From Polaromonas sp. JS666 (GTDB lineage Bacteria; Pseudomonadota; Gammaproteobacteria; Burkholderiales; Burkholderiaceae_C), in NCBI RefSeq assembly GCF_000013865.1, contig NC_007948.1, positions 2,294,001 to 2,358,000 of the forward strand: a DNA stretch of 64,000 bases, in the 5' to 3' direction. Position 1 is the first letter of the stretch, and each line of letters opens with the position of its first letter. Below the pieces are notes generated by a model. The model did no database searches. It was given only the letters and a program-made list of their open reading frames with translations, and was not told where the DNA came from. The position numbers were made by a program, and so were the translations under genes. Of the stretch, positions 34,743 to 51,850 are shown piece by piece.

Positions 34743-34771
34743 CTGTCATACAACTGCCATCGAACTGACAC
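34743..34771 (+). promoter_or_regulatory. Triple Pho box upstream of small unknown gene
   Basis: Three direct repeats sit 11 bp apart: CTGTCAT (34743), CTGCCAT (34754) and CTGACAC (34765), with 4 bp spacers ACAA and CGAA. The first two match the PhoB box CTGTCAT-n4-CTGTCAT with one mismatch. The array ends 57 bp before the chosen start of the downstream gene. Confidence 0.7.
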
Positions 34772-34828
34772 GAGCACGTCACCCCCGGCTTTCAGAATCA
34801 CGCCATGACCAGCATGACGGAGCACGCG

Positions 34829-35095
34829 ATGGAACTGTATTTGAACCACGCCCCTGAACAGGGCAAGCACGAGCAGGGCGCCGCCAGCGCCCTGAGCGCC
34901 GGCATCCATGACCTCAACCAGCAGTGCCTGCGCATCCTGCGCTGCACGGCCCAGGCGCTGGCCAACAGTCCGGGCGGATTGCGCTTCAAGGCGGGTACCC
35001 GGCCCTGGCTCGAAGGCCTTTCAAAAGCGCGGCCGGCGCTGATCACCGGCTTGGGGCGACGGGACGACGCGGTGTCGCTCGTCGTCGGCGATTGA
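34829..35095 (+). CDS. Small unknown protein behind a Pho box
   Basis: The ATG at 34829 has GGAG 6 bases upstream and gives 88 residues; ATGs at 34805 and 34814 are alternatives. The sequence starts MELYLNHAPEQGKHEQG, has a central helical segment with cysteines (LNQQCLRILRCTAQALANS) and a basic end. There is no signal peptide or membrane segment, and I recognise no domain. The Pho box upstream and a terminator after it indicate a phosphate-starvation protein expressed on its own or as leader to olsB. Confidence 0.65.
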   Translation: MELYLNHAPEQGKHEQGAASALSAGIHDLNQQCLRILRCTAQALANSPGGLRFKAGTRPWLEGLSKARPALITGLGRRDDAVSLVVGD

Positions 35096-35110
35096 CAGAG
35101 TGAGAGCCGG

Positions 35111-35134
35111 AGCCCCCTTTATTGGGGCTTTTTT
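35111..35134 (+). terminator. Rho-independent terminator
   Basis: AGCCCC-CTTTATT-GGGGCT forms a 6 bp GC-rich stem followed by TTTTTT (35129-35134). It lies 15 bases after the small Pho-controlled gene and before olsB, so it separates them or attenuates readthrough. Confidence 0.85.
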
Positions 35135-35200
35135 ATAGCGCGCCTGATTTGAGTCGTGGAGTTGCTGAAGTTGTTGACACAAGGAACCAAGGAGTTAGCC

Positions 35201-36085
35201 ATGAAAGAACTGCCCAATCCCACCTTTGCATTGTCGCCCGTCGCAATGCCACGGGGGTCACTTCATCAAAGCGGTCATGCTGTCAGCCAGCCCTCTACTC
35301 ATGGGGTTCAAGGGTCTCAAAGGCCTTCAGTGGGGAAAATCCTGGTCAGCTGGGCCCGGCACCAGGACGAGGTCCGGCAGGCGCAACGCCTGAGGTACCA
35401 GGTGTTTGCTCTTGAAATGGGCGCCACCCTGTCCAGGACCTTGCCGGGTCACGACATTGACCTGTTTGACGATTATTGCGAACACCTGCTGGTGCGCGAC
35501 GAGGCCAGCGGCGACGTGATTGGCACCTACCGCGTGCTCACCCCGACCCAGGCCAAGCGCGTGGGCAGCACCTACAGCGACACCGAATTCGACCTGACCC
35601 GGCTGCGCTCCCTGCGCGAGCGCATGGTGGAGCTGGGGCGCAGCTGCGTGCACGCAGACCACCGGCATGGCGGCGTGATTCTGGCACTCTGGGGCGCGCT
35701 GGCCGAGTTCATGGCGCGCAACCAGCTCGACACCATGATTGGTTGTGCCAGCATCCCAATGCAGCACAACGGTGTCTCCAGTGGGCAGGCGGCTGCCAGC
35801 ATCTGGCGCCAGGTGCGGCAAACCCACCTGGCCGCCATCGAATACCGCGTGACGCCGCGCCTGGCCTTGCCGGTGGAGCAGCTCGACGACTCACTGGATG
35901 TGGAGCCGCCGGCGCTGATCAAGGGTTACCTGCGCCTGGGCGCCAAGGTGCTCGGGGCGCCGGCCTGGGACCCGGACTTCAACTCGGCCGATTTGCCCAT
36001 GATGATGCGCATCGCCGACTTGCCGCCGCGTTACCTGAAGCATTTTTCGGGCAAGCCCCTTCCTGCCAATTCCGCGGAGGCTTGA
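35201..36085 (+). CDS. olsB: L-ornithine N-alpha-acyltransferase OlsB-like (GNAT fold)
   Basis: The ATG at 35201 has a perfect AAGGAG ribosome site and gives 294 residues. The N terminus is long and low in structure. The acyltransferase core starts around residue 50 with RHQDEVRQAQRLRYQVFALEMGA, and has LFDDYCEHLLVRDEASGDVIGTYRVL and MVELGRSCVHADHRHGGVILALWGAL. OlsB makes lyso-ornithine lipid from ornithine and 3-hydroxyacyl-ACP, the first step to phosphorus-free ornithine lipids. The stop overlaps the next gene (TGATG). No olsA is seen in the window. Confidence 0.85.
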   Translation: MKELPNPTFALSPVAMPRGSLHQSGHAVSQPSTHGVQGSQRPSVGKILVSWARHQDEVRQAQRLRYQVFALEMGATLSRTLPGHDIDLFDDYCEHLLVRDEASGDVIGTYRVLTPTQAKRVGSTYSDTEFDLTRLRSLRERMVELGRSCVHADHRHGGVILALWGALAEFMARNQLDTMIGCASIPMQHNGVSSGQAAASIWRQVRQTHLAAIEYRVTPRLALPVEQLDDSLDVEPPALIKGYLRLGAKVLGAPAWDPDFNSADLPMMMRIADLPPRYLKHFSGKPLPANSAEA

Positions 36086-36945
36086 TGCGGCACATGTTTG
36101 ACGCCCTCGCATCGTTCGGCAACGGGAATGTGCCGGGCCAGGACGACAGCGACGATGAGTCGTTGCGCAAGCGTTACCGCACGATTTTCATCTCTGACCT
36201 TCATCTGGGCACGCCCGGCTGCCAGGCGGCGGCGCTGCTGGACTTCCTGAAAGCCCATCCCAGCGACAACCTGTACCTGGTGGGCGATATCGTTGACGGC
36301 TGGCAGCTGCGCCGCAAGTGGTACTGGCCGCAGTCCCACAACGACGTGGTGCAAAAGCTGCTGCGGCGCGCCCGCAAAGGCTGCCGCATCATTTATGTGC
36401 CGGGCAACCATGATGAGTTTGCGCGTGAATTTATGGGCCACCAGTTTGGCGGCATTGAAGTGATGGAAGAAGCGGTGCACACCACGGTCGCCGGCTTGCA
36501 GTTGTGGGTGATCCACGGTGATTATTTCGATGCGGTCGTGCAATGCGCCAAATGGCTCGCCTACGTGGGCGACAACCTGTATGAATTCACGCTCAAACTT
36601 AACCGGCATCTCAACAGCCTGCGCGCCCGAATGGGTTTGCCCTATTGGTCGCTGTCGGCTTACCTGAAGCAAAAGGTCAAGAGCGCGCTGAACTACGTCA
36701 CCGACTTCGAAGTGGCCGTGGCCAGCGAAGCGCGCCGCCGCGGCCACCAGGGTGTGGTGTGCGGCCATATTCATCGTGCCGAGATGCGCGACATCAACGG
36801 CGTCCTGTACTGTAACGACGGCGACTGGGTCGAAAGCCGCACGGCCTTGGTTGAAAATTTTGACGGCAGCCTGGAACTGGTGCATTGGGCGCCGGCCCAT
36901 GAAACCCAGGGCCGTGGTCATGCCGTGCAGGCGGTGACCGCATGA
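36085..36945 (+). CDS. Calcineurin-like metallophosphoesterase, PlcP- or LpxH-like
   Basis: The 286-residue protein has all five metal motifs: FISDLHLGTPG, VGDIVDGW, PGNHDEF, VIHGDYFD and CGHIHRAEM. Family members are annotated as UDP-2,3-diacylglucosamine diphosphatases. In Sinorhizobium a member, PlcP, is instead a phosphate-starvation phospholipase C that turns phospholipids into diacylglycerol. Coupling to olsB (1-base-shifted overlap) and to a GT4 glycosyltransferase, inside a Pho gene cluster, favours the PlcP role. It has no signal peptide. The function is inferred from context, not proven. Confidence 0.85.
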   Translation: MRHMFDALASFGNGNVPGQDDSDDESLRKRYRTIFISDLHLGTPGCQAAALLDFLKAHPSDNLYLVGDIVDGWQLRRKWYWPQSHNDVVQKLLRRARKGCRIIYVPGNHDEFAREFMGHQFGGIEVMEEAVHTTVAGLQLWVIHGDYFDAVVQCAKWLAYVGDNLYEFTLKLNRHLNSLRARMGLPYWSLSAYLKQKVKSALNYVTDFEVAVASEARRRGHQGVVCGHIHRAEMRDINGVLYCNDGDWVESRTALVENFDGSLELVHWAPAHETQGRGHAVQAVTA

Positions 36946-38045
36946 AGATTGCCTTGGTCACGGACGCCTGGGGGCCCCAGGTTAACGGTGTGGTTACCAC
37001 GCTTGTGGAGTTGGTGCGCGAACTGGAGCAACTGGGGCACGTGGTTGAGGTGATCCACCCAGGTCTTTTCAAGACCCGGCCTTGTCCCGGCTATGCGGGC
37101 ATTGACCTGGCGATTCGCCCGGGCCGGGGCCTGACTGAAAAGCTCGATGCTTTTCAGCCTGACGCCATTCACGTCGCGACCGAGGGCCCGTTGGGCTGGG
37201 CGGCGCGCAGCTATTGCGACAAACGCGGCCTGAAGTTCACAACGGCATTTCACACCAAGTTTCCTGAAATCCTCCATGCGGCGCTCAGGATCCCGCTGTC
37301 GTGGGGCTACGCGCTGTTTCGTTACTTTCATAAACCATCATCCGGCGTGATGGTGCCCACGCAAGGCGTGTTGCGCATGCTGGAGCGGCGGGGCTTTCGC
37401 AATTTGCGCGGCTGGACGCACGGCGTGGACACGCAGCTTTTTGAATTTCAGGATGCGCCGCGTGTGTATCCGCCTGTGGGCACGCTGGTTCGACCGGTTT
37501 CGCTGTTTGTGGGGCGGCTGTCGTATGAGAAGAACATCGAGGCGTTTCTCAAGCTGGACATTCCCGGCACCAAGGTCGTTTGCGGCGTGGGGCCGCTGGA
37601 AGTCGCACTCAGGGAGCGCTATCCGCATGTGCGATGGATGGGTGTGATGCCCCGCAGTGAACTGGCCAAGGTGTACGCGGCCGCCGATGTATTTGTGTTT
37701 CCCAGCCGGTCGGAAACGTTCGGCCTGGTGATGCTGGAGGCCATGGCGGCGGGCACACCTGTGGCGGCCTACCCGGTGGATGGCCCGCTGGAGGTGCTGG
37801 GTAGCGAGGAAGGGAACTGTCACGGCGGTGTCATGAATACCGATTTGCAGCAGGCCTGCTACAGCGCGCTGGCGGTACCGCGGCATCAAGCCCGCAGGCG
37901 GGCATTGGACTTCAGTTGGGAACAGGCGACACAACAGTTTGAAAGTTACCTGGTTCTGGCCGTGAAAAGCACCTCTTGCAAGCCGGTCAGTGGGGGAATA
38001 GCATCAGTCAAAAGTACTGTCACGCCTTTGTCATCAAACCGGTAA
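36942..38045 (+). CDS. GT4-family glycosyltransferase (Agt/SqdX-like)
   Basis: The 367-residue GT-B enzyme starts with MKIALVTDAWGPQVNGVVTT, typical of SqdX/Agt and mannosyltransferases acting on lipids. The donor site motif is PSRSETFGLVMLEAMAAGTPVAAYPVDGP, with the catalytic E-x7-E. The start overlaps the metallophosphoesterase stop by 4 bases. In marine bacteria an Agt next to PlcP glycosylates diacylglycerol to make replacement glycolipids under phosphate stress. The same role is likely here. The last 25 or so residues look non-conserved and contain the ppk Pho box. Confidence 0.85.
   Translation: MKIALVTDAWGPQVNGVVTTLVELVRELEQLGHVVEVIHPGLFKTRPCPGYAGIDLAIRPGRGLTEKLDAFQPDAIHVATEGPLGWAARSYCDKRGLKFTTAFHTKFPEILHAALRIPLSWGYALFRYFHKPSSGVMVPTQGVLRMLERRGFRNLRGWTHGVDTQLFEFQDAPRVYPPVGTLVRPVSLFVGRLSYEKNIEAFLKLDIPGTKVVCGVGPLEVALRERYPHVRWMGVMPRSELAKVYAAADVFVFPSRSETFGLVMLEAMAAGTPVAAYPVDGPLEVLGSEEGNCHGGVMNTDLQQACYSALAVPRHQARRRALDFSWEQATQQFESYLVLAVKSTSCKPVSGGIASVKSTVTPLSSNR
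38017..38034 (+). promoter_or_regulatory. Pho box upstream of ppk
   Basis: CTGTCAC-GCCT-TTGTCAT is a near-consensus 18 bp PhoB site with two 7 bp repeats 11 bp apart. It lies inside the 3' end of the glycosyltransferase gene, 51 bp before the ppk start. Confidence 0.8.
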
Positions 38046-38085
38046 ACACTTGGATTGCCTTTGATTACAAAGACTTGTGTTGTTG

Positions 38086-40197
38086 ATGTCCGATTTGCTC
38101 CCTTCATTTATTTTGTCCGCTCAATCCTCGGATGCTGCGCGACCTGTCAGGTTTCTCGACCGTGACCACAGTATTCTCGCTTTCAACGAGCGGGTGCTGG
38201 ACTGGGCCAGGCGCCCGGATGTGCCATTGCTGGAGCGCCTGAGGTTTTTGTGCATTGTGTCGTCCAACCTGGACGAGTTTTTTGAGGTTCGCGCCGCGCC
38301 TCACCTGACGGCGGCCCAGGGCAACGAACAAAAAGGTCTGTACACCGTAGAGTCCTTCGCGGCGCTGTCGGCTGCGGCGCATGACATGGTGGCGCGCCAG
38401 TATTCCCTTTATAACGATGACCTGCTGCCGGAGTTTGAACGGCAGGGCATTCGCATCGTCTCGCATGGCGAGCGCAACGCCGCCCAGCGACGCTGGGTGA
38501 AGGCCTATTTTGAACGGGAAGTCCGGCCGCTGCTGATTCCGGTCGGTCTCGACCCTTCCCATCCTTTCCCGCAGGTGGCCAACAAGTCGCTGAACTTTAT
38601 TGTGAGGCTCGGTGGCCATGATGCCTTCGGCCGCCAGAATGAAGTCGCGATTGTCAAGATTCCGCGTGTATTGCCGCGCATGATCCACATGCCGACCTCC
38701 GGCGACAGCAAGGGCAGGCTGTTTGTCTCGCTGTCCAGTGTGGTCCGGGCCCACCTGGCCGAGCTGTTTCCGGGCCGGGAGGTCGGGCAGTTTTCCCAGT
38801 TCCGCGTGACCCGGCACTCCGATCTGGCGGTGGATGAAGACGATGTGAAGAACCTGCGCACGGCCCTGCGCCAGGGCCTGGAGCAACGCCATTATGGCCA
38901 GGCTGTCCGGCTGGAAGTCGCGGCCGGATGTTCGGAATACCTGGCGAACTTTTTGCTCAAGCAGTTCGACCTGCCGGCGCTTTCCCTTTACAGGGTCCAG
39001 GGGCCGGTCAATCTGGTGCGGTTGACCCAACTGGTGGACCTGGTCAACGACCCCAAGCTGCTGTTTTCGCACTACAGCGCCAGCTATCCCACGCAGCTGC
39101 AACCTGGGCAGTCATTTTTTGAACGGCTCAAGCAGGGCGATGTGTCCATTCACCAGCCCTTCGAGAGTTTTGACGGTGTTCTGGCTTTTTTACGCGAGGC
39201 GGTCAACGACCCGCAGGTCCTGGCGATCAAGCAGACCATTTACCGCACCGGCACTGATTCGGAGCTGATGCTGTTGCTGCGGGAGGCTGTTCGGCGCGGC
39301 AAGGAGGTCACCGTCGTGGTGGAGCTCAAGGCACGGTTCGACGAGGAAGCCAATATCAATTGGGCGGAGATGCTGGAGTCGATTGGTGCGCAGGTGGTTT
39401 ATGGGGTGGTGGGCCTGAAGACCCACGCCAAGATGCTGCTGGTGACCCGGCGTGAGGGTCGGCATCTCGTCCGCTATGCACATCTGTCCACCGGCAATTA
39501 CAACCCGCGTACGGCGCGCCTGTATACCGACATCAGCTACCTGACAGCCGATCCCTTGCTGACGCTGGACATTGACAATGTCTTTGTGCACCTGGCCAGC
39601 CAGAGCCGGCTGCCCAAATTGCATCACCTCTGGCTGGCGCCGTTTCAGCTGCAGCGCAAACTGATTGAAAAAATCGATGCGGTAGGCGAAGCCGCCCTGC
39701 AGGGCAAGGATGCCCGCATTGTGGTGAAGATGAATGCGCTGACTGATGAAGACTTGATGCTGGCCCTGACCAGGGCCGGGCAGCGTGGCGTCAAAATTGA
39801 CCTGATCGTGCGCGGCGCCTGCATGCTGCCCGCCGGTGTTCCGGGCGTGACAGACAACATTCGGGTCCGCTCGGTGATTGGCCGGTTTCTGGAGCACTCG
39901 CGGGTGTTTTATTTCCGCAGTGCCGAGGAAGAAACGCTCTACCTCTCCAGCGCCGACTGGATGAACCGCAACATGCTACGCCGGATAGAACTGGCCTGGC
40001 CGGTCAACGATCCCGTCATTCGCCAGCGCATCATCGACGAATGCCTGGTGGCCTATTTGCACGACGGTCGCGACGCCTGGGACCTGCAGCCTGACGGTAC
40101 CTACCTGCGGGTGGATCAACGTGCCAAGACCGCGGGTCATGGCGCTCAGGCGGCCCTGATGGCGCGTTATTCACCACTCCACCACAGGGAAAAATAG
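38086..40197 (+). CDS. ppk1: Polyphosphate kinase 1
   Basis: The protein has 703 residues from the ATG at 38086; a GTG at 38077 is an alternative. The N-terminal domain starts RFLDRDHSILAFNERVLDWA, followed by VSSNLDEFFEVR. The catalytic histidine loop is RYAHLSTGNYNPRTARLYTD near residue 465, and the second motif YLSSADWMNRNMLRRIELAWPV lies near residue 625. PPK1 makes polyphosphate reversibly from ATP at the membrane. It is placed with ppx and the pst-pho genes and under a Pho box. Confidence 0.97.
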   Translation: MSDLLPSFILSAQSSDAARPVRFLDRDHSILAFNERVLDWARRPDVPLLERLRFLCIVSSNLDEFFEVRAAPHLTAAQGNEQKGLYTVESFAALSAAAHDMVARQYSLYNDDLLPEFERQGIRIVSHGERNAAQRRWVKAYFEREVRPLLIPVGLDPSHPFPQVANKSLNFIVRLGGHDAFGRQNEVAIVKIPRVLPRMIHMPTSGDSKGRLFVSLSSVVRAHLAELFPGREVGQFSQFRVTRHSDLAVDEDDVKNLRTALRQGLEQRHYGQAVRLEVAAGCSEYLANFLLKQFDLPALSLYRVQGPVNLVRLTQLVDLVNDPKLLFSHYSASYPTQLQPGQSFFERLKQGDVSIHQPFESFDGVLAFLREAVNDPQVLAIKQTIYRTGTDSELMLLLREAVRRGKEVTVVVELKARFDEEANINWAEMLESIGAQVVYGVVGLKTHAKMLLVTRREGRHLVRYAHLSTGNYNPRTARLYTDISYLTADPLLTLDIDNVFVHLASQSRLPKLHHLWLAPFQLQRKLIEKIDAVGEAALQGKDARIVVKMNALTDEDLMLALTRAGQRGVKIDLIVRGACMLPAGVPGVTDNIRVRSVIGRFLEHSRVFYFRSAEEETLYLSSADWMNRNMLRRIELAWPVNDPVIRQRIIDECLVAYLHDGRDAWDLQPDGTYLRVDQRAKTAGHGAQAALMARYSPLHHREK

Positions 40198-40199
40198 CC

Positions 40200-40673
40200 A
40201 TGGACCTCATCTTGTGGCGCCATGCGGAGGCAGAGGACTGGCCCGGAGGTGATCCCGAGGGAGGCAGTGATCTGGACCGGTCTCTCACACCGCGGGGAGA
40301 GAAGCAGGCGGCCCGCATGGCCGGCTGGCTGGACCGGCAGCTCCCGGAAGGCACACGCATTCTGGTAAGCCCGGCGCGGCGCTGTGAGCAGACGGTGCTG
40401 GCGTTGGGACGCAAGTACAAGATACGGACAGAACTGGCACCTGATGCAACGCCTGCGCAGTTGCTGGAACTGGTGCAATGGCCGCAGAGCCGGTCGCCGG
40501 TTTTGGTGGTGGGGCATCAACCCACACTGGGACAGACCATTGCCAAGCTGCTGGGGCTGCAGGAGAGCGATTGCCCGGTCAAAAAGGGCTCGCTCTGGTG
40601 GCTTCGCAGCCGAGAACGCGACGGACATACCCAGACCATTGTGGTCACCGTGCAGTCGCCTGAAGTGCTCTAG
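40200..40673 (+). CDS. sixA: SixA-type phosphohistidine phosphatase
   Basis: The 157-residue histidine-phosphatase-superfamily protein has the RHA catalytic motif LILWRHAEAEDW and the second histidine in VLVVGHQPTLGQT. SixA dephosphorylates phosphohistidine domains of phosphotransfer proteins. The ATG comes 2 bases after the ppk stop. The stop codon TAG coincides with the first bases of an inserted palindromic element, so the native C terminus may have been longer or different. Confidence 0.88.
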   Translation: MDLILWRHAEAEDWPGGDPEGGSDLDRSLTPRGEKQAARMAGWLDRQLPEGTRILVSPARRCEQTVLALGRKYKIRTELAPDATPAQLLELVQWPQSRSPVLVVGHQPTLGQTIAKLLGLQESDCPVKKGSLWWLRSRERDGHTQTIVVTVQSPEVL

Positions 40674-40833
40674 TGTGGTGTTGCATGCTTGACGGCACCA
40701 ATAAAACCGATGGATTTTTGGTCAGGGCAAGGCGCAAACCACAGCAATAGTCCCGCTATTGCGCGGATTTGCAACGCCGCCATGGACGAAAAGACGCGGT
40801 TTTAGGTGCCGGATAGCGTGCAACACCACACTA
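40671..40833. mobile_element. 163 bp palindromic MITE-like element
   Basis: The termini are near-perfect 18 bp inverted repeats: TAGTGTGGTGTTGCATGC at 40671-40688 and its complement (one mismatch) at 40816-40833. The interior continues to pair, with GCAATAG-TCCCG-CTATTGC at the centre. TA dinucleotides bound both ends, as for IS630/Tc1-type insertions. It has no coding capacity. The whole element could fold into one long hairpin and may also act as a terminator for ppk-sixA. Confidence 0.75.
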
Positions 40834-40839
40834 GGTGTG

Positions 40840-40980
40840 GGGGGCTTCCATAAATCCAATTCTCGGGCGCATGGCCGCGTTGCGCGGTGCTCGGAATCCT
40901 CATGCACCCAAGTGCATTCCGGTTCCTGCGCTTCGTGCGCCTTGCCCTGCATCCCGATAATTGAATTTCTGGAAGCCCCC
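40840..40980. repeat. Second long palindromic element, 141 bp
   Basis: The ends GGGGGCTTCCATAAATCC... (40840) and ...TTTCTGGAAGCCCCC (40980) form an inverted repeat of about 28 bp with three mismatches, enclosing a centre with no reading frame. It sits only 6 bp from the first element but has unrelated sequence. It resembles a MITE or large REP unit. Confidence 0.65.
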
Positions 40981-41003
40981 GGTAAAAACCTCTTTTGCTG
41001 TGG

Positions 41004-41438
41004 CTATATTTTTAGGGCAGGGCGGCCAGTCTTGATGGCTGGAACCTGCTCCAGCGCCATCAGGAAGGCGGCATCGGACAGGGCTGCCAGGGCTTTGATG
41101 CCGGCACGCAGCACTTCGCTTTTTTTGGCCGGGCGGGTTAATTGGGCTGCACGCTGTTTGAGACCCTCAAGCACCAGGTATTCGGCTTTGGGAATGGTAA
41201 AGCTGTCGCGTACCAGTTTGGGTTTCTTGGGCTTGGCTGCCTTTTCAGGCGTCGTTGCCGGCAGGACCTTGGGCAGCGGCGCTTTGGCGCCCGCTTTTTT
41301 GGCAACGGGCGTGGGGGAGGGGGCCTTGCCCGTGACGGCTTTTCGGACGGGTGACTTTTTCAGTTCAGGTTTTGCTGCGTTTGGCTTGGCCGGGGTTTTT
41401 CGCGCCGGGGCGGGCGAGGCTTTCTTTGTGGTTGCCAT
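41004..41438 (-). CDS. Lys/Ala/Pro-rich protein with C-terminal RHH-like domain
   Basis: The protein has 144 residues. The first 75 are a low-complexity, histone-H1-like basic tail (KKASPAPARKTPAKPNAAKP). The C-terminal part, KLVRDSFTIPKAEYLVLEGLKQRAAQL...KKSEVLRAGIKALAALSD, fits a ribbon-helix-helix: a strand, then two helices. It is probably a small nucleoid-associated or regulatory DNA-binding protein. A perfect 13 bp inverted repeat at 41457-41492 starts 19 bp upstream of its ATG, consistent with autoregulation. I know no named homologue. Confidence 0.75.
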   Translation of the reverse strand: MATTKKASPAPARKTPAKPNAAKPELKKSPVRKAVTGKAPSPTPVAKKAGAKAPLPKVLPATTPEKAAKPKKPKLVRDSFTIPKAEYLVLEGLKQRAAQLTRPAKKSEVLRAGIKALAALSDAAFLMALEQVPAIKTGRPALKI

Positions 41439-41456
41439 GAGAATGTCCTTTTCAAT

Positions 41457-41492
41457 AAACGATATAAACCGTATATATAGTTTATATCGTTT
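41457..41492. promoter_or_regulatory. Large palindromic operator upstream of the RHH-like gene
   Basis: AAACGATATAAAC (41457-41469) and GTTTATATCGTTT (41480-41492) are a perfect 13 bp inverted repeat with the AT-rich spacer CGTATATATA. It covers the likely promoter of the leftward gene. Confidence 0.7.
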
Positions 41493-41538
41493 GAAAATGA
41501 ACCGTCAAGCCTCCTGGCTGCCACAGGGTTCCTGCTGT

Positions 41539-43038
41539 CTACAGACCGGAGACAATCAGGGTCCATGGCGTTTTTTGCCAGGCCAGCACTTCTTCGCGCA
41601 GCAAGTGCGCCGATTGAGGAAAGGCTTCAGCCCAGCCCGGCCTGCAGTTCAGCACAAAAATCCTGCCGGGTTCCGCGCTGCATTCGAGTTGCAGTCCCTT
41701 GAGGTCAGGGTCTCGCCGGGCGTGGCACAAAATGACCGCCATGCGCAGGCACAGCAGTTGCTGGACAAACACCCGGTCTTCGAAGTCAACTTCCAGCTTG
41801 CGCAGTTTCCCGCGATGACCCAGCACGAGCAGGCTCAGCCGGTGCAGCTCGGGGAGCGCAAAACCGGGCGCGTCGGCGTTGTCCAGAATATAGGCGCCAT
41901 GCTTGTGGTAGTCGCTGTGTGAAATCTGGCTGCCAATCTCATGAAGCTGCGCAGCCCACTGCAGCTTGCGCTGGAAACGCTCCAGTGCCTCGCCTGGGAG
42001 GCCTGCGCCAGCCATCCGGAACAGGTGCTGCGAAACTCTGCTGACCCGCTGGGCCTGTGCTGCATCTGAGTTGAATTTGCTCGCCAGGCGCTGGACGCTG
42101 GTTGAGCGCAAATCGGTGGAGTCCTGCTCCCGGTCGAGGAGGTCATAAAGAACGCCGTGGCGCAGCGCGCCCTGGGCGGCTTCCATCTGTTCAATGCCCA
42201 GCAGCCCGAACACAGCCCTCAGCACGCTGACGCCACCGCCAATGACGGCGCGCCGGTCATCTTTCATGCCGTCGAGCTTCACGCGGTCGGCATGTTGCGC
42301 CTTGAGCAGGCGATCGAGCAGCCAGTCGAGGCCATCACGCGTGACAAGGCCGGCAGGCCAGCCCGCGGCAGTCAGTACATCGCTGACGGCGCCAATCGTG
42401 CCGGACGAACCATAGGCGACATCCCAGACGCCCGGCTGGTAGGCATTGACCGCTTCATCAAGCACCGCTTTGGCCGCAATTTCAGCCATCTCGAAAGCCC
42501 GCGGCGTGAACTGGCCGTCCGGAAAGTACTTCATGGACCAAGCCACGCTGCCGACGCGGTAGGACTCCATCGTGCGTGCATCGAAGCCCTTGCCCAGGAT
42601 CATTTCTGTGGAGCGGCCCCCAATGTCCACAACCAGCCGGCGCTCATCCGACTGGGGCAGCAGATGGGCCACACCCTGGTAAATCAGTCGGGCTTCTTCG
42701 CTGCCTGAAATGACATCAATGGGGAATTCCAGAATCCGGAAGGCCTGCGCCAGAAATTCTTCCCGGTTGCGTGCCTCCCGCAAGGTTTGCGTGGCGACGG
42801 CCCTGACCTGCGTTTTTTTGAACCCGGCCAGCCGTTCGGCGAAGCGGGCCAGGCAGTCCCAGCCGCGCTGCATGGCGTCCGGCGTCAGGTTGCGGTCGCC
42901 GTCCAGTCCGTTGCCCTGGCGGACCGTTTCCTTGATGTATTCCGTGCGGTGGACCCGGCCATGATCAAGGCGGCCAATTTCAAGGCGAAAACTGTTGGAT
43001 CCCAGATCTACAGCCGCGAGCAGTGTTCCGTTTTGCAT
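41539..43038 (-). CDS. ppx: Exopolyphosphatase (Ppx/GppA family)
   Basis: The protein has 499 residues from the ATG at 43038. The ASKHA phosphate loop LAAVDLGSNSFRLEIGRL is at the N terminus. ISGSEEARLIYQGV and VVDIGGRSTEMILG give the second loop, followed by YGSSGTIGAV. The C-terminal helical HD-like region contains QLHEIGSQISHSDYHKHGAYIL. It degrades polyphosphate, or hydrolyses pppGpp, opposing the ppk product nearby. It is transcribed opposite to ppk. Confidence 0.93.
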   Translation of the reverse strand: MQNGTLLAAVDLGSNSFRLEIGRLDHGRVHRTEYIKETVRQGNGLDGDRNLTPDAMQRGWDCLARFAERLAGFKKTQVRAVATQTLREARNREEFLAQAFRILEFPIDVISGSEEARLIYQGVAHLLPQSDERRLVVDIGGRSTEMILGKGFDARTMESYRVGSVAWSMKYFPDGQFTPRAFEMAEIAAKAVLDEAVNAYQPGVWDVAYGSSGTIGAVSDVLTAAGWPAGLVTRDGLDWLLDRLLKAQHADRVKLDGMKDDRRAVIGGGVSVLRAVFGLLGIEQMEAAQGALRHGVLYDLLDREQDSTDLRSTSVQRLASKFNSDAAQAQRVSRVSQHLFRMAGAGLPGEALERFQRKLQWAAQLHEIGSQISHSDYHKHGAYILDNADAPGFALPELHRLSLLVLGHRGKLRKLEVDFEDRVFVQQLLCLRMAVILCHARRDPDLKGLQLECSAEPGRIFVLNCRPGWAEAFPQSAHLLREEVLAWQKTPWTLIVSGL

Positions 43039-43111
43039 GTCTGAGTTTCTTTGTCCGGGCCCAGCATAGCATTCACGCGGGCATCGGCACTCACCCCGGC
43101 ATTCCTGCTGC

Positions 43112-44390: not shown

Positions 44391-44873
44391 TTAGCGCTTC
44401 GCAGGAGGAATCAAAACGCTGTCGACGATATGCACCATACCGTTGGTCGCAGAAATATCAGCGGTTTGAACCATGGCTTCTTCCACCGTGACAAAATCGC
44501 CCGCTCTGGAGATTGCCACATTGGCGCCGTTGACGGTTTTGCTGTTGCCATTCTTGACGTCGGCGGCTATGACCTTGACGGGCAGTACGTGGTAGGTCAG
44601 CACGGCCTTGAGTTTGGCCGGATCCTTGGCAAGATCGTCCATGGTTTTTGCCGGAACCTTGGCGAAGGCCTCATTGGTAGGCGCGAAGACGGTAAAAGGG
44701 CCCGTACCCTTGAGGGTGTCCGTCAGTCCTGATTTGGCGACCAGGCTGGTGAGGGTGCTCAATTGCGGTTTGGCGGCGATGGTGTCCGCTACCGATACCG
44801 GGGCGCTGGAAGTAGCGCAGCCGGCGAGGGCGGCAACGGTTGTGGCGACGAGAAGAATGCGGAATTTGGGCAT
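44391..44873 (-). CDS. Fasciclin-domain lipoprotein
   Basis: The 160-residue protein has a lipoprotein signal (RILLVATTVAALAGC, lipobox LAGC at residue 19). One FAS1 domain follows: LSTLTSLVAKSGLTDTL, then GPFTVFAPTNEAFAKVP, LTYHVLPVKV and the C-terminal NGMVHIVDSVLIPP. FAS1 proteins mediate adhesion or surface binding. A Pho box on the same strand ends 45 bp before its ATG, so it is probably part of the phosphate-starvation response, divergent from pstS. Confidence 0.9.
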   Translation of the reverse strand: MPKFRILLVATTVAALAGCATSSAPVSVADTIAAKPQLSTLTSLVAKSGLTDTLKGTGPFTVFAPTNEAFAKVPAKTMDDLAKDPAKLKAVLTYHVLPVKVIAADVKNGNSKTVNGANVAISRAGDFVTVEEAMVQTADISATNGMVHIVDSVLIPPAKR

Positions 44874-44917: not shown

Positions 44918-44935
44918 ATGACAGATCCGTGACGA
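44918..44935 (-). promoter_or_regulatory. Pho box upstream of the fasciclin gene
   Basis: Read on the minus strand, TCGTCAC-GGAT-CTGTCAT gives two 7 bp repeats spaced 11 bp, with one perfect half site. It lies 45 bp upstream of the leftward fasciclin start. Confidence 0.65.
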
Positions 44936-44993
44936 AAATTTGAAGGTTTTATGACAACCCTGTGGATTTCCATGCATTGCCCCGGGAGGGTGT

Positions 44994-45011
44994 CTGTCAC
45001 ATCGTTGTCAC
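44994..45011 (+). promoter_or_regulatory. Pho box upstream of pstS
   Basis: CTGTCAC-ATCG-TTGTCAC is an 18 bp PhoB site with two 7 bp repeats 11 bp apart, ending 52 bp before the pstS ATG. Together with the minus-strand box it makes this 190 bp region a divergent PhoB-controlled promoter. Confidence 0.85.
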
Positions 45012-45063
45012 ACAAGTTTTTTACAGTTCGTGCATCTTTCCTACCAACCCCAAAGGTGTTCCG

Positions 45064-46107
45064 ATGAAATTGAGTTTCAAAGCTTCTGCGACTGCTGTGA
45101 TGGGTGTTGCCATCATGTCGTTTGCCACGTTGTCGGCCGCGCAGGATGTCACGGGCGCTGGAGCCAGTTTCCCCGCTCCGCTGTATTCCAAATGGGCTGC
45201 TGACTACAACAAGGCCACCAGCATCAAGATTAATTACCAGTCGGTCGGCTCTGGCGCGGGTTTGCGGCAGATTGAGGCCAAGACCGTGGACTTTGGCGCA
45301 TCAGACGCTCCCCTGAAGGATGAAGAGCTCGCCAAAAAAGGGCTGGTGCAGTTTCCGACCGTGATTGGTGGCGTGGTTCCTGTGGTCAATATCAAGGGCG
45401 TCGCTCCGGGCCAACTGAAGCTGAGCGGTCAGGTCCTGGGTGACATCTACCTGGGCAAGATCACCAAGTGGACCGACCCCGCCATCAAGGCGATGAATCC
45501 TGCACTGGCCTTGCCGGATGCGGCCATCGCGCCGGTCCGCCGAGCTGATGGTTCAGGTACCAGCTTCATTTTCACCAATTATTTGAGCAAGGCCAACGCC
45601 GAGTGGAAGGCCAAAGTGGGTGAAGGTACGGCGGTGAACTGGCCGGCGGGTGCTGGCGGCAAGGGTAACGAGGGCGTCGCGGCGTTTGTCGGTCGCCTGC
45701 CCAACTCGATTGGCTATGTGGAGTACGCCTATGTCAAGCAGAACAAGATGACGTTTGTCCAGCTGAAGAATGCTGCCGGCAATTTCGTGTCGCCGGATGA
45801 TGCGGCATTCAAGGCTGCTGCTGCAGGCGCCGACTGGTCCAAGAGTTTTTACCAGATACTGACTGAGCAGCCCGGCAAGGATGCATGGCCTATCACGGGC
45901 GCCACCTTTATCCTGATGCAGAAGGCGCAGGACAAGCCCGCGCAGGCCGCTGCCTCGCTCAAATTCTTCGAGTGGGCCTATAAGAACGGCGACAAGATCG
46001 CTGACGACCTGGACTATGTGCCCATGCCCGCCAGCGTGAAGACGATCATCGAAAAATCGTGGGCTGACATCAAGGACACGTCGGGCAAGGCTGTTGCTTA
46101 CAAATAA
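45064..46107 (+). CDS. pstS: Phosphate ABC transporter substrate-binding protein PstS
   Basis: The protein has 347 residues from the ATG at 45064. The signal peptide (ASATAVMGVAIMSFATLSAAQ) is followed by DVTGAGASFPAPLYSKWAADYNK. Other phosphate-site loops are QSVGSGAGLRQIEAKTVDFGASDAPL, RRADGSGTSFIFTNYLSK and the C-terminal EFFEWAYK-like motif. It binds inorganic phosphate in the periplasm with high affinity and feeds PstCAB. A Pho box lies upstream. Confidence 0.98.
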   Translation: MKLSFKASATAVMGVAIMSFATLSAAQDVTGAGASFPAPLYSKWAADYNKATSIKINYQSVGSGAGLRQIEAKTVDFGASDAPLKDEELAKKGLVQFPTVIGGVVPVVNIKGVAPGQLKLSGQVLGDIYLGKITKWTDPAIKAMNPALALPDAAIAPVRRADGSGTSFIFTNYLSKANAEWKAKVGEGTAVNWPAGAGGKGNEGVAAFVGRLPNSIGYVEYAYVKQNKMTFVQLKNAAGNFVSPDDAAFKAAAAGADWSKSFYQILTEQPGKDAWPITGATFILMQKAQDKPAQAAASLKFFEWAYKNGDKIADDLDYVPMPASVKTIIEKSWADIKDTSGKAVAYK

Positions 46108-46164
46108 GCCTGCTGCTTGGCCTGTTTTCCCTGAAAGTGACGACGAATCATGGGGGTTTTATAA

Positions 46165-47196
46165 GTGTCCTCTACACTTCCGGCTAGCCGGGCCGCTTTT
46201 GATCACCCGGCGGATGCGACCGGACGTGACATGACCAATCCTCCTCCTGTAAATGGTATACGCAGAAGCTCCCTGGCAGACCGGCTTTTCGGCTGGGCCG
46301 CCCAGGGGGCGGCACTGCTGACGCTCGGTTTGCTGATCGGTATTTTGTTGTCGTTGATCGTCGGAGCGTGGCCAGCCATCAGCAAGTACGGACTCGGTTT
46401 TTTGACCAGCAGCGTCTGGGACCCCGTCAAAGACGAGTACGGCGGACTGATCATGATCTATGGCACGCTCGCCACGTCGCTGATTGCCCTGGTGATTGCC
46501 GTGCCCGTGAGCTTTGGTATCGCGCTGTTCCTGACCGAGCTGTCGCCCGCCTGGCTCAAAAGGCCTTTGGGCACCGCTATTGAACTGCTGGCCGCCGTGC
46601 CGTCCATCGTGTACGGCATGTGGGGCTTGCTGGTGTTCGGGCCCATCCTCGCCACCTACGTGCAGCAGCCGCTGCAAAGTCTGTTCAGTAATGTGCCTTA
46701 CCTGGGGGCCCTGTTTTCGGGGCCGCCGGTGGGCATTGGCATATTGTCGGCCGGCATCATTCTCGCGATCATGATCATTCCGTTCATCGCTTCGGTGATG
46801 CGCGATGTGTTTGAGGTCACGCCGGTGCTGCTGAAAGAATCGGCTTACGGCCTCGGATCCACCACCTGGGAAGTGGTATTCAAGGTGGTGCTGCCCTACA
46901 CCAAAGCCGGTGTGGTGGGCGGCATCATGCTGGGCCTGGGGCGTGCGCTGGGCGAGACCATGGCGGTGACCTTCGTGATCGGCAACTTCAACCAGCTCGA
47001 TTCCCTGAGCCTGTTTCAGGCAGCCAACAGCATCACGTCGGCACTGGCCAATGAGTTTGCCGAGGCGGCTGACGGCTTGCATCAGGCCGCATTGATCTAC
47101 CTGGGCCTGGTGCTGTTCTTTATCACCTTTGTGGTGCTTTCGCTGTCCAAGCTCCTGTTGGCCCAATTGAGGAAAAACGAGGGAGCCAAATCATGA
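46165..47196 (+). CDS. pstC: Phosphate ABC transporter permease PstC
   Basis: The protein has 343 residues from the GTG at 46165; the ATG at 46231 is an alternative start without the extra N-terminal tail. It has six membrane helices, with [26 protein letters not shown] after the first and [19 protein letters not shown]. The EAA loop [39 protein letters not shown] is canonical. It forms the phosphate channel with PstA. Confidence 0.96.
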
Positions 47197-48053
47197 GTGC
47201 CGTGATGCAGGATGCGCGCCTGGCCAAGTTTGCCCGCCGCAAACGTGTCAACCAGATTGCGCTGGTGCTCTCCCTGGCGGCCATGTCGTTCGGGCTTTTC
47301 TGGCTGTTCTGGATTCTGTGGGAAACGATACGCCTGGGCATCGGCGGCATTGCACTGGCGACCTTCACCGAAATGACGCCCGCGCCCAATGAATCCGGCG
47401 GCATTGCGAATGCGCTGTATGGTTCGTTCCTGATGGTGCTGCTGGCGACGTGCGTCGGCACACCGATCGGCATCATGGCCGGTATTTACCTGGCTGAGTA
47501 CAACACCAAGGGTTGGTTGGCATCGGTCACACGCTTTGTGAACGATATTTTGCTCTCGGCGCCCTCCATCGTGATCGGCCTGTTTGTGTACGCTGTGGTG
47601 GTGTCGCGCTTCAAGTCCTTTTCGGGATGGGCCGGCGTGATAGCGCTTGCATTGATTGTGATTCCGGTGGTGATCCGGACCACGGAAAACATGCTTCAGC
47701 TGGTTCCGGCCGGGCTGCGCGAGGCTGCCTACGCGCTGGGTGCGCCCAAATGGAAGGTGATCACCAGCATTACGCTCAAGGCGGCCCGCTCGGGTGTGGT
47801 GACCGGCATCCTCCTGGCCGTAGCGCGCATCGCGGGTGAAACAGCGCCTTTGTTGTTCACGGCGCTCAACAACCAGTTCTGGACTTCGGACCTGAGCCAG
47901 CCCATGGCCAGCTTGCCTGTGACGATTTTCAAGTTTGCCATGAGCCCGTACGAGAACTGGCAGCAACTTGCCTGGGCTGGCGTGTTCCTGATCACGCTCG
48001 CGGTACTCGGCCTGAATATTCTGGCGCGTGTATTGACGCGCACCAAACACTGA
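47193..48053 (+). CDS. pstA: Phosphate ABC transporter permease PstA
   Basis: The 286-residue protein has six membrane helices. [21 protein letters not shown] and [18 protein letters not shown] precede the EAA-type loop [42 protein letters not shown]. The ATG overlaps the pstC stop by 4 bases. Confidence 0.96.
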
Positions 48054-48098
48054 TGGGCTGACCGACGGTCGACCCACATACCAAGACAAGGTCAAAAG

Positions 48099-48890
48099 AT
48101 GGATACCCTCACTGCGTCACGCGAAAAGCTGGCCGAGAAATCGAAAATATCGGTCAAAAACCTCGACTTCTTCTACGGAAAATTTCACGCCCTCAAAAGC
48201 ATTAATCTGGAAATTCCCGAGAAAAAAGTCACAGCCTTCATTGGCCCCTCGGGCTGCGGAAAATCCACCCTGCTGCGGATCTTCAACCGCATGTATGAAC
48301 TTTATCCCGAGCAGCGTGCGGAGGGGGACGTTACGTTTGACGGGGAAAACCTGCTGACCTCCAAAAAGGACGTGGCGCTGATCCGCTCCAAGGTCGGCAT
48401 GGTCTTTCAGAAGCCCACGCCATTTCCCATGTCGATTTATGACAATATTGCTTTTGGGGTCAAGCTGTTTGAAAGCCTCAACGCCTCGGATATGGACGAG
48501 CGGGTCGAGTGGGCACTGCGCAAGGCGGCTCTCTGGGGGGAAGTCAAGGACAAGCTGAACCAGAGCGGTTCCAGCCTGTCCGGAGGCCAGCAGCAACGGT
48601 TGTGCATTGCCCGCGGCATTGCCATCAAGCCCGAGGTGTTGCTGCTCGATGAGCCTTGCTCGGCGCTGGACCCCATTTCCACGGCCAAGGTGGAGGAACT
48701 GATTGCCGAGCTGAAAAACGACTACACGGTGGTGATCGTCACGCACAACATGCAGCAGGCCGCCCGCTGCAGCGATTACACGGCCTATATGTACCTGGGC
48801 GATCTTGTTGAATTTGGTGCCACGGAAGACCTCTTCTTCAAACCCAAGCGCAAAGAGACGGAAGACTACATCACCGGCCGTTTCGGATGA
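48099..48890 (+). CDS. pstB: Phosphate ABC transporter ATP-binding protein PstB
   Basis: The 263-residue protein has Walker [18 protein letters not shown], the Q-loop region [20 protein letters not shown], the signature [15 protein letters not shown], Walker [14 protein letters not shown] and the H-loop [16 protein letters not shown], all specific to PstB. It energises phosphate import and helps signal to PhoR through PhoU. Confidence 0.98.
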
Positions 48891-48950
48891 ACAAAGCTTC
48901 CCCCTGTCTCGGCTCACTGCGTGTAGCCGGAATCCCCCTCCGGGGGACGG

Positions 48951-48980
48951 CGCCTGCGGCCCGGCGAAGCCGGTTCCGCG
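48951..48980 (+). repeat. GC-rich interspersed repeat, copy A
   Basis: The 30 bp core starts CGCCTGCGGCCCGGC and ends AAGCCGGTTCCGCG, and contains the stem GCCGGC/GCCGG. It recurs at 55581-55610 (inverted), 60376-60405 and, interrupted, 60562-60615. This copy lies in the pstB-phoU gap with partial flanks (CTCACTGCGTGTAGC, CCCCCTCCGGGGG). Confidence 0.8.
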
Positions 48981-49058
48981 ACGCCCGCTGGCTCGGCACT
49001 GAGCGTCTCATGCGTTGCGGCTCCGATTGCAGCGGCAAATAAACCCAAAGGGAACAAC

Positions 49059-49760
49059 ATGCCTGATAAACACCTCTCGACCCAGTTTGACAGCGAACTC
49101 AACGGCGTGTCCTCGCGTGTGATGGAGCTCGGCGGCCTGGTTGAATCCCAGATCCGTCTGGCCATCTATGCGTTGTCGCAATTCAGCACCGAGAGCGCCA
49201 ACCAGGTGATAGAGACTGAGGCGCGTGTCAACGCGATGGAAATCGACATTGACCGCGAGCTGTCTTCCATCATTGCCCGCCGCCAGCCTACTGCCCGCGA
49301 TTTGCGCCTGCTGATCGCCATTTCAAAGACCACGGCCAACCTGGAGCGTGCCGGCGATGAAGCCGAAAAAATCGCGCGCATGGTCAATTCGATCATCAAC
49401 AGCGGTTCGGCACGCGTCCTGCCGTCGTCCGATCTTCGCGTTGCCGCAGAACTGGCTTCCGGCTTGCTGCGCAAGGCGCTGGACGCCTTCGCCCGGCTGG
49501 ATACCGCTGCGGCGGTATCCATCCTCAAGGAGGACGACCTGATTGACCAGGAGTTTGACGGTTTTGTGCGCAAGCTGATCACCTACATGATGGAAGATCC
49601 ACGCACCATTTCAGCCAGCCTGGACTTGCTGTTTGTCGCCAAGGCCATCGAGCGTGTGGGCGACCACGCCAAGAATATCGCCGAGTTCATCATCTATATC
49701 GTCAAAGGCGCGGATGTCAGGCATACCTCCATGGACCAGATCGAGTCCGCCGTCAAGTAA
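49059..49760 (+). CDS. phoU: Phosphate signalling protein PhoU
   Basis: The protein has 233 residues from the ATG at 49059 with AAAGGGAA upstream. It is all-helical with two PhoU repeats, each with the metal-binding E/DxxxD pattern: ATEAR-like TEARVNAMEIDIDRELSSIIARRQPTARDLRLLIAISKTTANLERAGDEAEKIA and the second LDLLFVAKAIERVGDHAKNIAEFIIY. It mediates repression of PhoR by the Pst transporter when phosphate is plentiful. Confidence 0.97.
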   Translation: MPDKHLSTQFDSELNGVSSRVMELGGLVESQIRLAIYALSQFSTESANQVIETEARVNAMEIDIDRELSSIIARRQPTARDLRLLIAISKTTANLERAGDEAEKIARMVNSIINSGSARVLPSSDLRVAAELASGLLRKALDAFARLDTAAAVSILKEDDLIDQEFDGFVRKLITYMMEDPRTISASLDLLFVAKAIERVGDHAKNIAEFIIYIVKGADVRHTSMDQIESAVK

Positions 49761-49766
49761 GGCCGC

Positions 49767-50498
49767 ATGAAACACCAAGCCCGCATACTGATTGTTGAAG
49801 ACGAGCCAGCGATTGCCGAACTGATTGCGGTCAACTTGAGGCATGGTGGGTTTGAGCCCGTCGTGGTTCAGGACAGTGTGGCGGCCCAGCGCGAACTCGA
49901 CGCGGTGCTGCCCGATGCCATCCTGCTCGACTGGATGCTGCCGGGGCAGAGCGGCTTGGCGCTGGCGCGTCATTGGCGCAAGCAGGTACGCACCAAGGCC
50001 ATTCCCATCCTGATGCTGACCGCCCGCGGCGATGAGCCTGACAAGGTTGCGGGCCTGGATGCCGGTGCCGACGACTACATCACCAAGCCGTTTTCAACGC
50101 AGGAGCTGCTCGCGCGCATTCGTGCCGTGCTGCGCCGCCGCGCACCGGAGTCGGTGAACGACAGTGTGACAGTGGGTGCGCTGGTACTGGATGCAGGCAC
50201 CCATCGCATTTCGTTCCAGAACCAGGAACTCAAGCTGGGCCCGACGGAGTTCAAGCTGCTGCATTACCTGATGAAACATGCGGAACGTGTGCACAGCCGC
50301 AGTACCTTGCTGGACAAGGTGTGGGGTGACCATGTGTTCATTGAAGAACGTACGGTAGACGTTCACGTCAAGCGCCTGCGTGAGGCGCTGGGCGCCGCCG
50401 GTACCATGGTTGAAACCGTTCGCGGGGCGGGTTACCGTCTGACTGCTGCGGCTGCCGCTACCACTCGGGTAACTGCTGCGGCACAATCCGGCACATGA
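49767..50498 (+). CDS. phoB: Phosphate response regulator PhoB
   Basis: This 243-residue OmpR-type regulator has a receiver domain with the acidic pair in ILIVEDEPA, the phosphorylated aspartate in ILLDWMLPGQSG near residue 54 and the lysine in ITKPFSTQELLARI. The winged helix DNA-binding domain ends RTVDVHVKRLREALGAAG...VRGAGYRL. It binds the Pho boxes found in this window. It overlaps phoR by 4 bases. Confidence 0.97.
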   Translation: MKHQARILIVEDEPAIAELIAVNLRHGGFEPVVVQDSVAAQRELDAVLPDAILLDWMLPGQSGLALARHWRKQVRTKAIPILMLTARGDEPDKVAGLDAGADDYITKPFSTQELLARIRAVLRRRAPESVNDSVTVGALVLDAGTHRISFQNQELKLGPTEFKLLHYLMKHAERVHSRSTLLDKVWGDHVFIEERTVDVHVKRLREALGAAGTMVETVRGAGYRLTAAAAATTRVTAAAQSGT

Positions 50499-51850
50499 TC
50501 AACCGCTGGATCGCTTTTACCGCCTGCATGTTGGCCGGTGGCGCATTGGGATGGTTGACGACTGCGAAGGGTGGACCCGCATGGAGCCTGGGTGTGGGTC
50601 TTGGACTGGGCGCCTTGATATGGCTGATGATCGACAGCCTCTACCTGGCCCGGCTCCTCCGGTGGCTGCGCGCCGAGCAGGGCCGCGAAGCGCCGGCCAT
50701 GGTGTCCAGCCAGCTACCCCGCTTGCCCGGTGTATGGGAGGAAGTGGTCGACCGGACCCGCAGGCTGCTGAAGAACCGCGACCAGCAGTTGCAGGAAAGC
50801 CAGGCACGACTGGACGAGTTTCTGGCGGCCATGCAGGCTTCCCCGAGCGGGGTGGTGCTGCTGGATACGCAGGGGCGCATCGAGTGGTGCAATCAGATGG
50901 CGACCCAGCATTTTGGTTTTGACGTGCAGCGCGATGTGATGCAGCATATTGCCAACCTGGTTCGCGAGCCTGCCTTCAAGGCCTACCTGGCGTCGGGTAA
51001 CTATTCGCATGACGTGGTGATTCCCGGCAGCCTCAGCACACCGGCGCGACCCGTCAAGTTGTCAGTGCATGTGCATTCGTATGGCAAAGACCGCAAGTTG
51101 CTGCTGTCGCGGGACATCACCGCCGTCGAGCTGGCGGAAGCCATGCGCCGGGATTTTGTGGCCAATGTGTCGCATGAGATCCGTACGCCGCTGACGGTGT
51201 TGTCCGGCTTCATCGAGACGCTGCGAACCCTGCCTTTGGAGGAGCCCGAGCGCGCACGTTACCTGGCGCTGATGGCGCAGCAATCCCAGCGCATGCAGAC
51301 GCTGGTGAATGACTTGCTGACACTGTCACGCCTGGAGGGAAGCCCGTTCCCCGGCGCCAATGACTGGATCACCACCAGTGCGCTGCTGGTGCAGTGCGAG
51401 CAGGAGGCCCGGGCCTTGTCGGCTGTGATTGCGCCGCGCGGGCATCGGCTGGAGTTTGACGCCGGGCCGGCCAGCGAAATCGCAGGCGTGCAAACGGAGC
51501 TGTACAGCGCCATGTCCAACCTGGTGACCAATGCGGTCCGCTATACACCGGAGACGGGCCTGGTCAGCGTCAGCTGGAAGCTGCTCAAGGATGGCCGCGG
51601 CCAGTTTGAGGTCAGGGACACCGGACCGGGTATAGAGCCCGAACATTTGCCTCGCCTGACGGAGCGCTTTTATCGCATTGACCGCAGTCGCTCGCGTGAA
51701 ACTGGCGGAACGGGTTTGGGCCTGGCCATCGTCAAGCATGTCGCCCAGCGCCACGGTGCCGAACTGCATATCGACAGCCAGCCCGGGCACGGTTCGCGCT
51801 TTTCACTCATTTTCCCCGCGGCACGCATCCGCCCGGCTCACGCTGCCTGA
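50495..51850 (+). CDS. phoR: Phosphate sensor histidine kinase PhoR
   Basis: The 451-residue inner-membrane kinase has two N-terminal membrane helices (residues 5-45), no large periplasmic domain, and a PAS-like domain near residues 100-200. The phospho-acceptor motif is FVANVSHEIRTPLTVLSGF near residue 220. The ATPase domain has the N box (SNLVTNAVRYTPE), DTGPGIEPEHL and GGTGLGLAIVKHV. It senses phosphate through PstSCAB-PhoU. Its stop overlaps the convergent MATE gene by 13 bases. Confidence 0.96.
   Translation: MINRWIAFTACMLAGGALGWLTTAKGGPAWSLGVGLGLGALIWLMIDSLYLARLLRWLRAEQGREAPAMVSSQLPRLPGVWEEVVDRTRRLLKNRDQQLQESQARLDEFLAAMQASPSGVVLLDTQGRIEWCNQMATQHFGFDVQRDVMQHIANLVREPAFKAYLASGNYSHDVVIPGSLSTPARPVKLSVHVHSYGKDRKLLLSRDITAVELAEAMRRDFVANVSHEIRTPLTVLSGFIETLRTLPLEEPERARYLALMAQQSQRMQTLVNDLLTLSRLEGSPFPGANDWITTSALLVQCEQEARALSAVIAPRGHRLEFDAGPASEIAGVQTELYSAMSNLVTNAVRYTPETGLVSVSWKLLKDGRGQFEVRDTGPGIEPEHLPRLTERFYRIDRSRSRETGGTGLGLAIVKHVAQRHGAELHIDSQPGHGSRFSLIFPAARIRPAHAA

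Follow-up and report, generated by a model that had tools for sequence, protein, structure and literature searches.

Within a stretch of 64 kb (the window) from Polaromonas sp. JS666, whose genome comprises 5.9 Mb in 3 contigs and is 100% complete, positions 34743 to 51850 hold the genes olsB, plcP, agt, ppk and sixA as a tight row, followed by ppx and by pstSCAB-phoU-phoBR (Table 1). The row is probably a PhoB-controlled locus for the replacement of membrane phospholipids during phosphate starvation. All genes named in a preliminary description of this DNA were found here. It had also described olsB, plcP and agt as tightly overlapped, and indeed the olsB/plcP junction overlaps as TGATG and the plcP/agt junction as ATGA (4 bases). 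However, the operon as drawn at that time was too short, because the row also takes in ppk and sixA. The start of olsB had to be corrected to the ATG at 35201, which is the more likely one and is preceded by AAGGAG. The more likely start of ppk is the ATG at 38086, and pstS probably starts at the ATG at 45064, which lies 3' of its Pho box. By plcP similarity, the nearest named relatives of the locus belong to Polaromonas as well.

Table 1. Coordinates of the genes and sites at positions 34743-51850 of the window and of an adjoining gene
Feature	Position	Strand	Evidence
phnE, phosphonate ABC permease	32733..33572		TIGR01097, 268.1 bits
Triple Pho box (three 7-mers, 11-bp spacing) before the small gene and the olsB row	34743..34771	+	20.1 bits; aligned in related loci
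Small conserved gene (96 aa), first after the Pho box	34805..35095	+	Core conservation; pN/pS; no NCBIfam or Pfam match
Intrinsic-terminator-like GC hairpin with T run, between the small gene and olsB	35111..35134	+	Sequence inspection
olsB, ornithine N-acyltransferase-like (GNAT)	35201..36085	+	PF13444, 123.4 bits; NF052554, 154.8 bits (cut-off 350)
plcP, intracellular phospholipase C-type metallophosphoesterase (286 aa)	36085..36945	+	52% identity to S. meliloti homologue; tree; GNHD
agt, probable diacylglycerol glycosyltransferase (GT4)	36942..38045	+	50% identity over 334 columns to partner of P. aeruginosa plcP
Pho box before ppk, in the last codons of agt (3' end)	38017..38034	+	21.1 bits
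ppk, polyphosphate kinase 1	38077..40197	+	TIGR03705, 896.2 bits
sixA-like histidine phosphatase, same row as ppk	40200..40673	+	PF00300; TIGR00249, 64.8 bits (below cut-off 74.5)
Histone H1-like open reading frame	41004..41438	-	Lys/Ala/Pro-rich; no Pfam match
ppx, exopolyphosphatase	41539..43119	-	TIGR03706, 314.9 bits (cut-off 307)
Periplasmic-binding-protein-like gene	43112..44257	-	PF13458
Fasciclin-domain gene	44391..44873	-	
Possible Pho box before the fasciclin-domain gene	44918..44935	-	15.9 bits
pstS, pstC, pstA, pstB	44962..48890	+	Profile matches
Pho box before pstS	44994..45011	+	19.6 bits
phoU, phoB, phoR	49059..51850	+	TIGR02135, TIGR02154, TIGR02966 above cut-off

The assignment of plcP is central to this reading. 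The encoded protein of 286 amino acids (aa) shares 52% identity (BLAST) with its Sinorhizobium meliloti homologue, which we take to be SMc00171 and whose gene (locus L048) adjoins genes for a LuxR regulator and an acyl-homoserine lactone synthase. It shares 55.8% identity with a Pseudomonas aeruginosa protein whose gene is directly followed by a glycosyltransferase gene. This pair (locus L050), found on a plasmid record of P. aeruginosa, is presumably a copy of PA3219-PA3218, judging by gene order and neighbours. The metal-binding motifs of the phosphoesterase fold (D-H, GD-D, GNHD, H and GH-H) are invariant columns in a 13-row alignment. The lipid A enzyme LpxH (UDP-2,3-diacylglucosamine diphosphatase) has a calcineurin-like fold too and is a distant sequence match to PlcP. 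However, the 286 aa protein scored far below the LpxH equivalog cut-offs of NCBIfam, with 48.2 bits (cut-off 134) and 42.6-42.8 bits (TIGR01854, cut-off 190.35). A separate LpxH is encoded at position 3024181 of contig C1; it reaches 177.8 bits with TIGR01854, slightly below the cut-off, has a long branch in the tree described below and carries the motif GNRD. For a comparison of motifs, 149 rows passing a length and score filter were used, some of which repeat this genome (112 distinct rows on the PlcP side and 31 on the LpxH side); the LpxH rows besides that of this genome are the 30 top-scoring loci and no random draw. GNHD is present in 117 of 117 PlcP-side rows, as in the 286 aa protein, and GNRD in 32 of 32 LpxH-side rows. 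A maximum-likelihood tree of 40 rows chosen from the 149 separated both sides with a support of 100/100 and grouped the 286 aa protein with the PlcP-type proteins of S. meliloti and P. aeruginosa. Thus, by its sequence, it is a PlcP-type protein and not LpxH. Its predicted model (mean predicted local distance difference test score, pLDDT, 74.4) has the LpxH of Haemophilus influenzae as top Foldseek match (19% identity, TM-scores 0.47 and 0.56), which is uninformative on the substrate. The preliminary description had already proposed a phospholipase C-type protein instead of a lipid A enzyme, and this claim holds on the two points named beforehand as grounds for giving it up: the protein groups with PlcP, and the genome has its own LpxH.

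The coexistence of both proteins is common. In an even draw of 250 genomes of the order, seven of them from the Genome Taxonomy Database (GTDB) family of the window, LpxH (1e-25) was also found in 122 of 125 genomes with PlcP (1e-30). The other three (G015, G146 and G214), of one genus in family f16, have a PlcP-type protein and no LpxH match at 1e-25, with two PlcP-type places in G015. Since other f16 genomes (G063, G107, G183 and G244) are without both PlcP and LpxH, another lipid A enzyme is likelier there than a swap.

A search by plcP similarity gave 587 loci, and the arrangement of the row was compared in the best 80 that were kept; these are close to the window and unevenly sampled (L121 and L129 are from one assembly). 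The gene immediately before plcP is olsB in 67 of the 76 loci with room for it, and the gene immediately after plcP is agt in 53 of 77. The order olsB-plcP-agt is present in 48 of 73 testable loci, and with ppk added in 39 of 67; in 23 of the 80, the stretch retrieved also includes pstS. The row occurs in many loci of the Comamonadaceae, including Polaromonas, Rhodoferax, Acidovorax, Limnohabitans and Hydrogenophaga. Moreover, of the 64 typed genomes of the order draw that have both plcP and agt, 58 have them side by side, with plcP first each time. Of 69 typed genomes, 17 have olsB no more than 6 kb from plcP; it precedes plcP in six of them (e.g. G178, G209, G239) and follows it in eleven (e.g. 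G108, G225, G245), which suggests that both genes have been joined repeatedly. A survey of 274 genomes of the class detected PlcP (1e-60) in 76 and an OlsB-like protein (1e-30) in 44. By eye, three genomes besides this one (G282, G360 and G426) have an olsB-like gene and plcP within 3 kb, in one case on opposite strands. Thus, the linkage extends beyond this order.

Pho boxes were scored with a weight matrix that we built from the Escherichia coli consensus. Four sites of at least 18 bits were found in the 64 kb (at 38017, 34743, 44994 and 37817) and none in 30 simulated windows of equal dinucleotide frequencies. Strong boxes thus precede the small gene at the head of the row, ppk and pstS, and the view of the preliminary description that several units carry them is confirmed. 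The site at 37817 was not taken as a Pho box; it lies inside agt and may be due to chance. For a survey across the loci, the best plus-strand site in the 500 bases before olsB was scored in 66 loci (14 others were without olsB or room), and random windows from the same loci, true boxes included, served as controls. At least 13 bits were reached before olsB in 29 of the 66 loci, as compared to 6.7% of 1320 control windows, and before ppk in 47 of 59 loci, as compared to 2.9% of 1180. Thus, the Pho box of ppk is the best supported one. In three loci without the small gene (L071, L082 and L123), a Pho box lies about 95-135 bases before olsB, which suggests that Pho control acts directly on olsB in these loci. 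Furthermore, in 5 of the 80 loci (L057, L125, L072, L073 and L087) the gene immediately before olsB encodes a PhoX alkaline phosphatase (PF05787 with 554.4 bits in L057, the one scanned). A search of the Pho regions for direct repeats added nothing. Taken together, the recurring boxes support a putative Pho control of the row. As a separate observation, in L063, L067 and L068, where no olsB was found, plcP is directly preceded by a gene more distantly similar to phoX (34-35% identity).

The glycosyltransferase encoded next to plcP is, by its identity to the partner of the P. aeruginosa PlcP, a probable diacylglycerol glycosyltransferase. The OlsB-like protein is the sole match to PF13444 (Acetyltransf_5) in the genome, and its best NCBIfam match is the OlsB model NF052554. 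The equivalog cut-off of this model is missed, and the protein is therefore filed as OlsB-like only. Six places in the genome match the acyltransferase family PF01553, two of which were checked. The better olsA candidate lies at about 1.19 Mb on contig C1, about 1.1 Mb away from the row; its best match is the OlsA model NF052553, with 138.3 bits (cut-off 300). The row had been called a full phospholipid-replacement module. It does join aminolipid and glycolipid genes; however, "full" is overstated because of the olsB/olsA pair only olsB sits here.

According to the model that we favour, low phosphate would lead to binding of phosphorylated PhoB to the Pho boxes and to expression of olsB-plcP-agt(-ppk-sixA). 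PlcP, by analogy with its homologues, would cut membrane glycerophospholipids to diacylglycerol and a phosphate-bearing head group, and Agt would add a sugar, likely from UDP-glucose, to the PlcP-derived diacylglycerol to give a glycolipid. OlsB would make a lyso-ornithine-type lipid that an OlsA encoded elsewhere would finish. Together, PlcP cleavage and phosphate-free replacement lipids would free phosphate from lipids. ppk, with a Pho box of its own, would ready the cell for the storage of phosphate as polyphosphate. We infer the activities from homologues, and with them the lipids made and the response to phosphate.

Several observations weigh against this model. Before olsB, 37 of the 66 loci remain below 13 bits, and at 17 bits there are 8 of 66 loci as compared to 3.6% of the controls. 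olsB-plcP-ppk is kept without agt in 11 of 67 loci. Among the seven genomes of the GTDB family in the even draw, olsB was found in seven, plcP in four, agt in three and the full row in two (this one and G234); in G049, olsB adjoins agt and plcP lies elsewhere, and at the thresholds used G093, G133 and G171 are without both plcP and agt. Because OlsB and the olsA candidate both score below their NCBIfam cut-offs, the amino acid used may differ from ornithine. Finally, the hairpin before olsB could uncouple this gene from the Pho box at 34743.

The hairpin follows the small gene, the first one after the Pho box at 34743. The core of the small protein (Q-LR-L-CTA-----SPGGLRF--G--PWL--L) is present in 11 of 84 sequences examined, namely in the window, L058-L062, L085, L086, L121, L129 and L135, between a Pho-box region and olsB. 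The ratio of nonsynonymous to synonymous polymorphism (pN/pS) is 0.28 in frame; the two remaining forward frames give 1.49 and 2.22, and the three reverse frames 1.06, 0.43 and 2.09. The protein has no match in Pfam or NCBIfam, and its predicted structure is mostly helical and too weak for interpretation (mean pLDDT 59.4). A profile search, which scored at most 13 candidates per genome so that misses are likely, gave at least 82 bits in 7 of 399 genomes of the family, i.e. in this one, five congeners and one of another genus. In all seven, olsB is the next gene downstream, within about 170 bases. Five weak matches (20-24 bits) were taken as chance, since none of 19 window proteins was found nearby at 1e-8. 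Of 16 other loci examined, seven (L057-L062 and L072) have a hairpin similar to that of the window; the distance to olsB is 60-103 bases. A consensus terminator scan, with 11 sites in all as compared to 12.4 expected, does not list the hairpin of the window, and the z-score of the fold of this hairpin is only -1.39.

It is conceivable that the locus is not one Pho unit. The box at 34743 would then drive only the small gene, up to the hairpin, and olsB-plcP-agt would have its own, perhaps constitutive, promoter beside the separate Pho box of ppk. The recurrence of the hairpin with its T run before olsB fits this idea, as does its occurrence after phoX in L057 and L072, due to which it may be a plain gene-end terminator. 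However, the loci in which a Pho box directly precedes olsB speak against a split, and no sigma-70-like promoter was listed on the plus strand before olsB. We consider a split unit unlikely. A further idea places the hairpin within the Pho response. The small gene could be a new Pho-induced regulator whose translation or product decides on transcription past the hairpin into olsB-plcP-agt, so that phospholipid breakdown would form a second, gated step of the response to phosphate starvation in Polaromonas and its near relatives; this is speculative, and we give it only a slim chance.

A different objection concerns the glycolipid. PlcP could mainly recycle lipid phosphate, with the diacylglycerol being re-phosphorylated or degraded, the ornithine-type lipid being the main replacement and the product of Agt being minor or another glycoconjugate. 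In line with this, agt is missing from the 11 loci mentioned above, and olsB is the more constant neighbour of plcP (67 of 76 loci, as compared to 53 of 77 for agt). However, plcP and agt overlap here, they are neighbours in the same order in nearly all typed genomes that have both, and the homologous P. aeruginosa pair is reported to make a glycolipid (PMC8528852). Thus, recycling without a substantial glycolipid appears quite improbable. That the 286 aa protein could be LpxH or a second LpxH is largely refuted and very hard to sustain, since its LpxH-like best matches (NCBIfam, PDB sequences and Foldseek) and the annotation of its homologue as lipid A enzyme in 24 of 32 listed plasmid records are outweighed by its low LpxH scores, the separate LpxH, the GNHD motif, the tree and the location of plcP overlapping agt among Pho boxes.

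Replacement of phospholipids by a PhoB-driven PlcP-Agt pathway, with an aminolipid, is already known. Remodelling by PlcP and Agt has been reported from marine bacteria (PMC4796936), Pseudomonas (PMC8528852) and methanotrophs (PMC9239053). In P. aeruginosa, glycolipids are lost or lowered in plcP, agt1 and agt2 mutants under phosphate stress, and the agt1 mutant makes no monoglucosyldiacylglycerol (MGDG) (PMC8528852). The PlcP-Agt1 pair of this organism (PA3219-PA3218; PMC8528852) resembles the one described here, with plcP directly upstream of agt, a Pho box and identities of 56% and 50%, whereas no olsB, ppk or small gene is annotated within the 5 kb flanks of L050. Similarly, the S. meliloti PlcP falls on the same side of the tree, but neither agt nor olsB is annotated within the 6 kb flanks of L048. 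Adjacent plcP and agt genes with Pho boxes are also the commonest type of marine plcP context described by Sebastian et al. (PMC4796936); however, the neighbours named in the available part of that report are agt, other glycosyltransferases and bta genes, with no mention of olsB. In Pseudomonas putida BIRD-1, PlcP, OlsA and OlsB depend on PhoBR and are co-induced by phosphate starvation (PMC5082522), but the locus tags place plcP (PPUBIRD1_1390) apart from olsAB (PPUBIRD1_0974-0975). Agrobacterium tumefaciens uses PlcP, Agt and OlsB in phosphate limitation, whereas its genes plcP (atu1649), agt (atu2297) and olsB (atu0344) are scattered, judging by their locus tags (PMC3972451). Both cases illustrate co-regulation without co-location. 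Methylosinus trichosporium OB3b has plcP-agt and overproduces ornithine lipid in phosphate limitation, but its olsA and olsB have locus tags of their own, and the available part of the report does not count them as members of the plcP-agt cluster (PMC9239053). The open-licence literature, without preprints, yielded no description of an operon that contains olsB together with plcP and agt, which does not show absence from print. New at the level of sequence are the row itself, which in many Comamonadaceae unites genes for an aminolipid, a glycolipid and polyphosphate and has conserved Pho boxes, and the small conserved gene between Pho boxes and a terminator-like hairpin.

Between the row and the pst genes, the opposite strand carries the histone H1-like open reading frame, ppx, the periplasmic-binding-protein-like gene and the fasciclin-domain gene (Table 1). 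In many of the 80 loci, the first of these separates sixA from ppx. The periplasmic-binding-protein-like gene overlaps ppx and adjoins it in several of the 80 loci; likewise, the fasciclin-domain gene, which is divergent from pstS, adjoins pstS in several of them. Upstream, phnE adjoins the island.

Because PlcP-type proteins are widely named as lipid A enzymes, as in the plasmid records mentioned above, this pathway can easily escape notice. The prediction from the locus is that betaproteobacteria of this kind replace their phospholipids under phosphate scarcity. A culturable strain with all of these genes in one locus may thus be a suitable place to study lipid replacement and the timing of membrane lipid breakdown.

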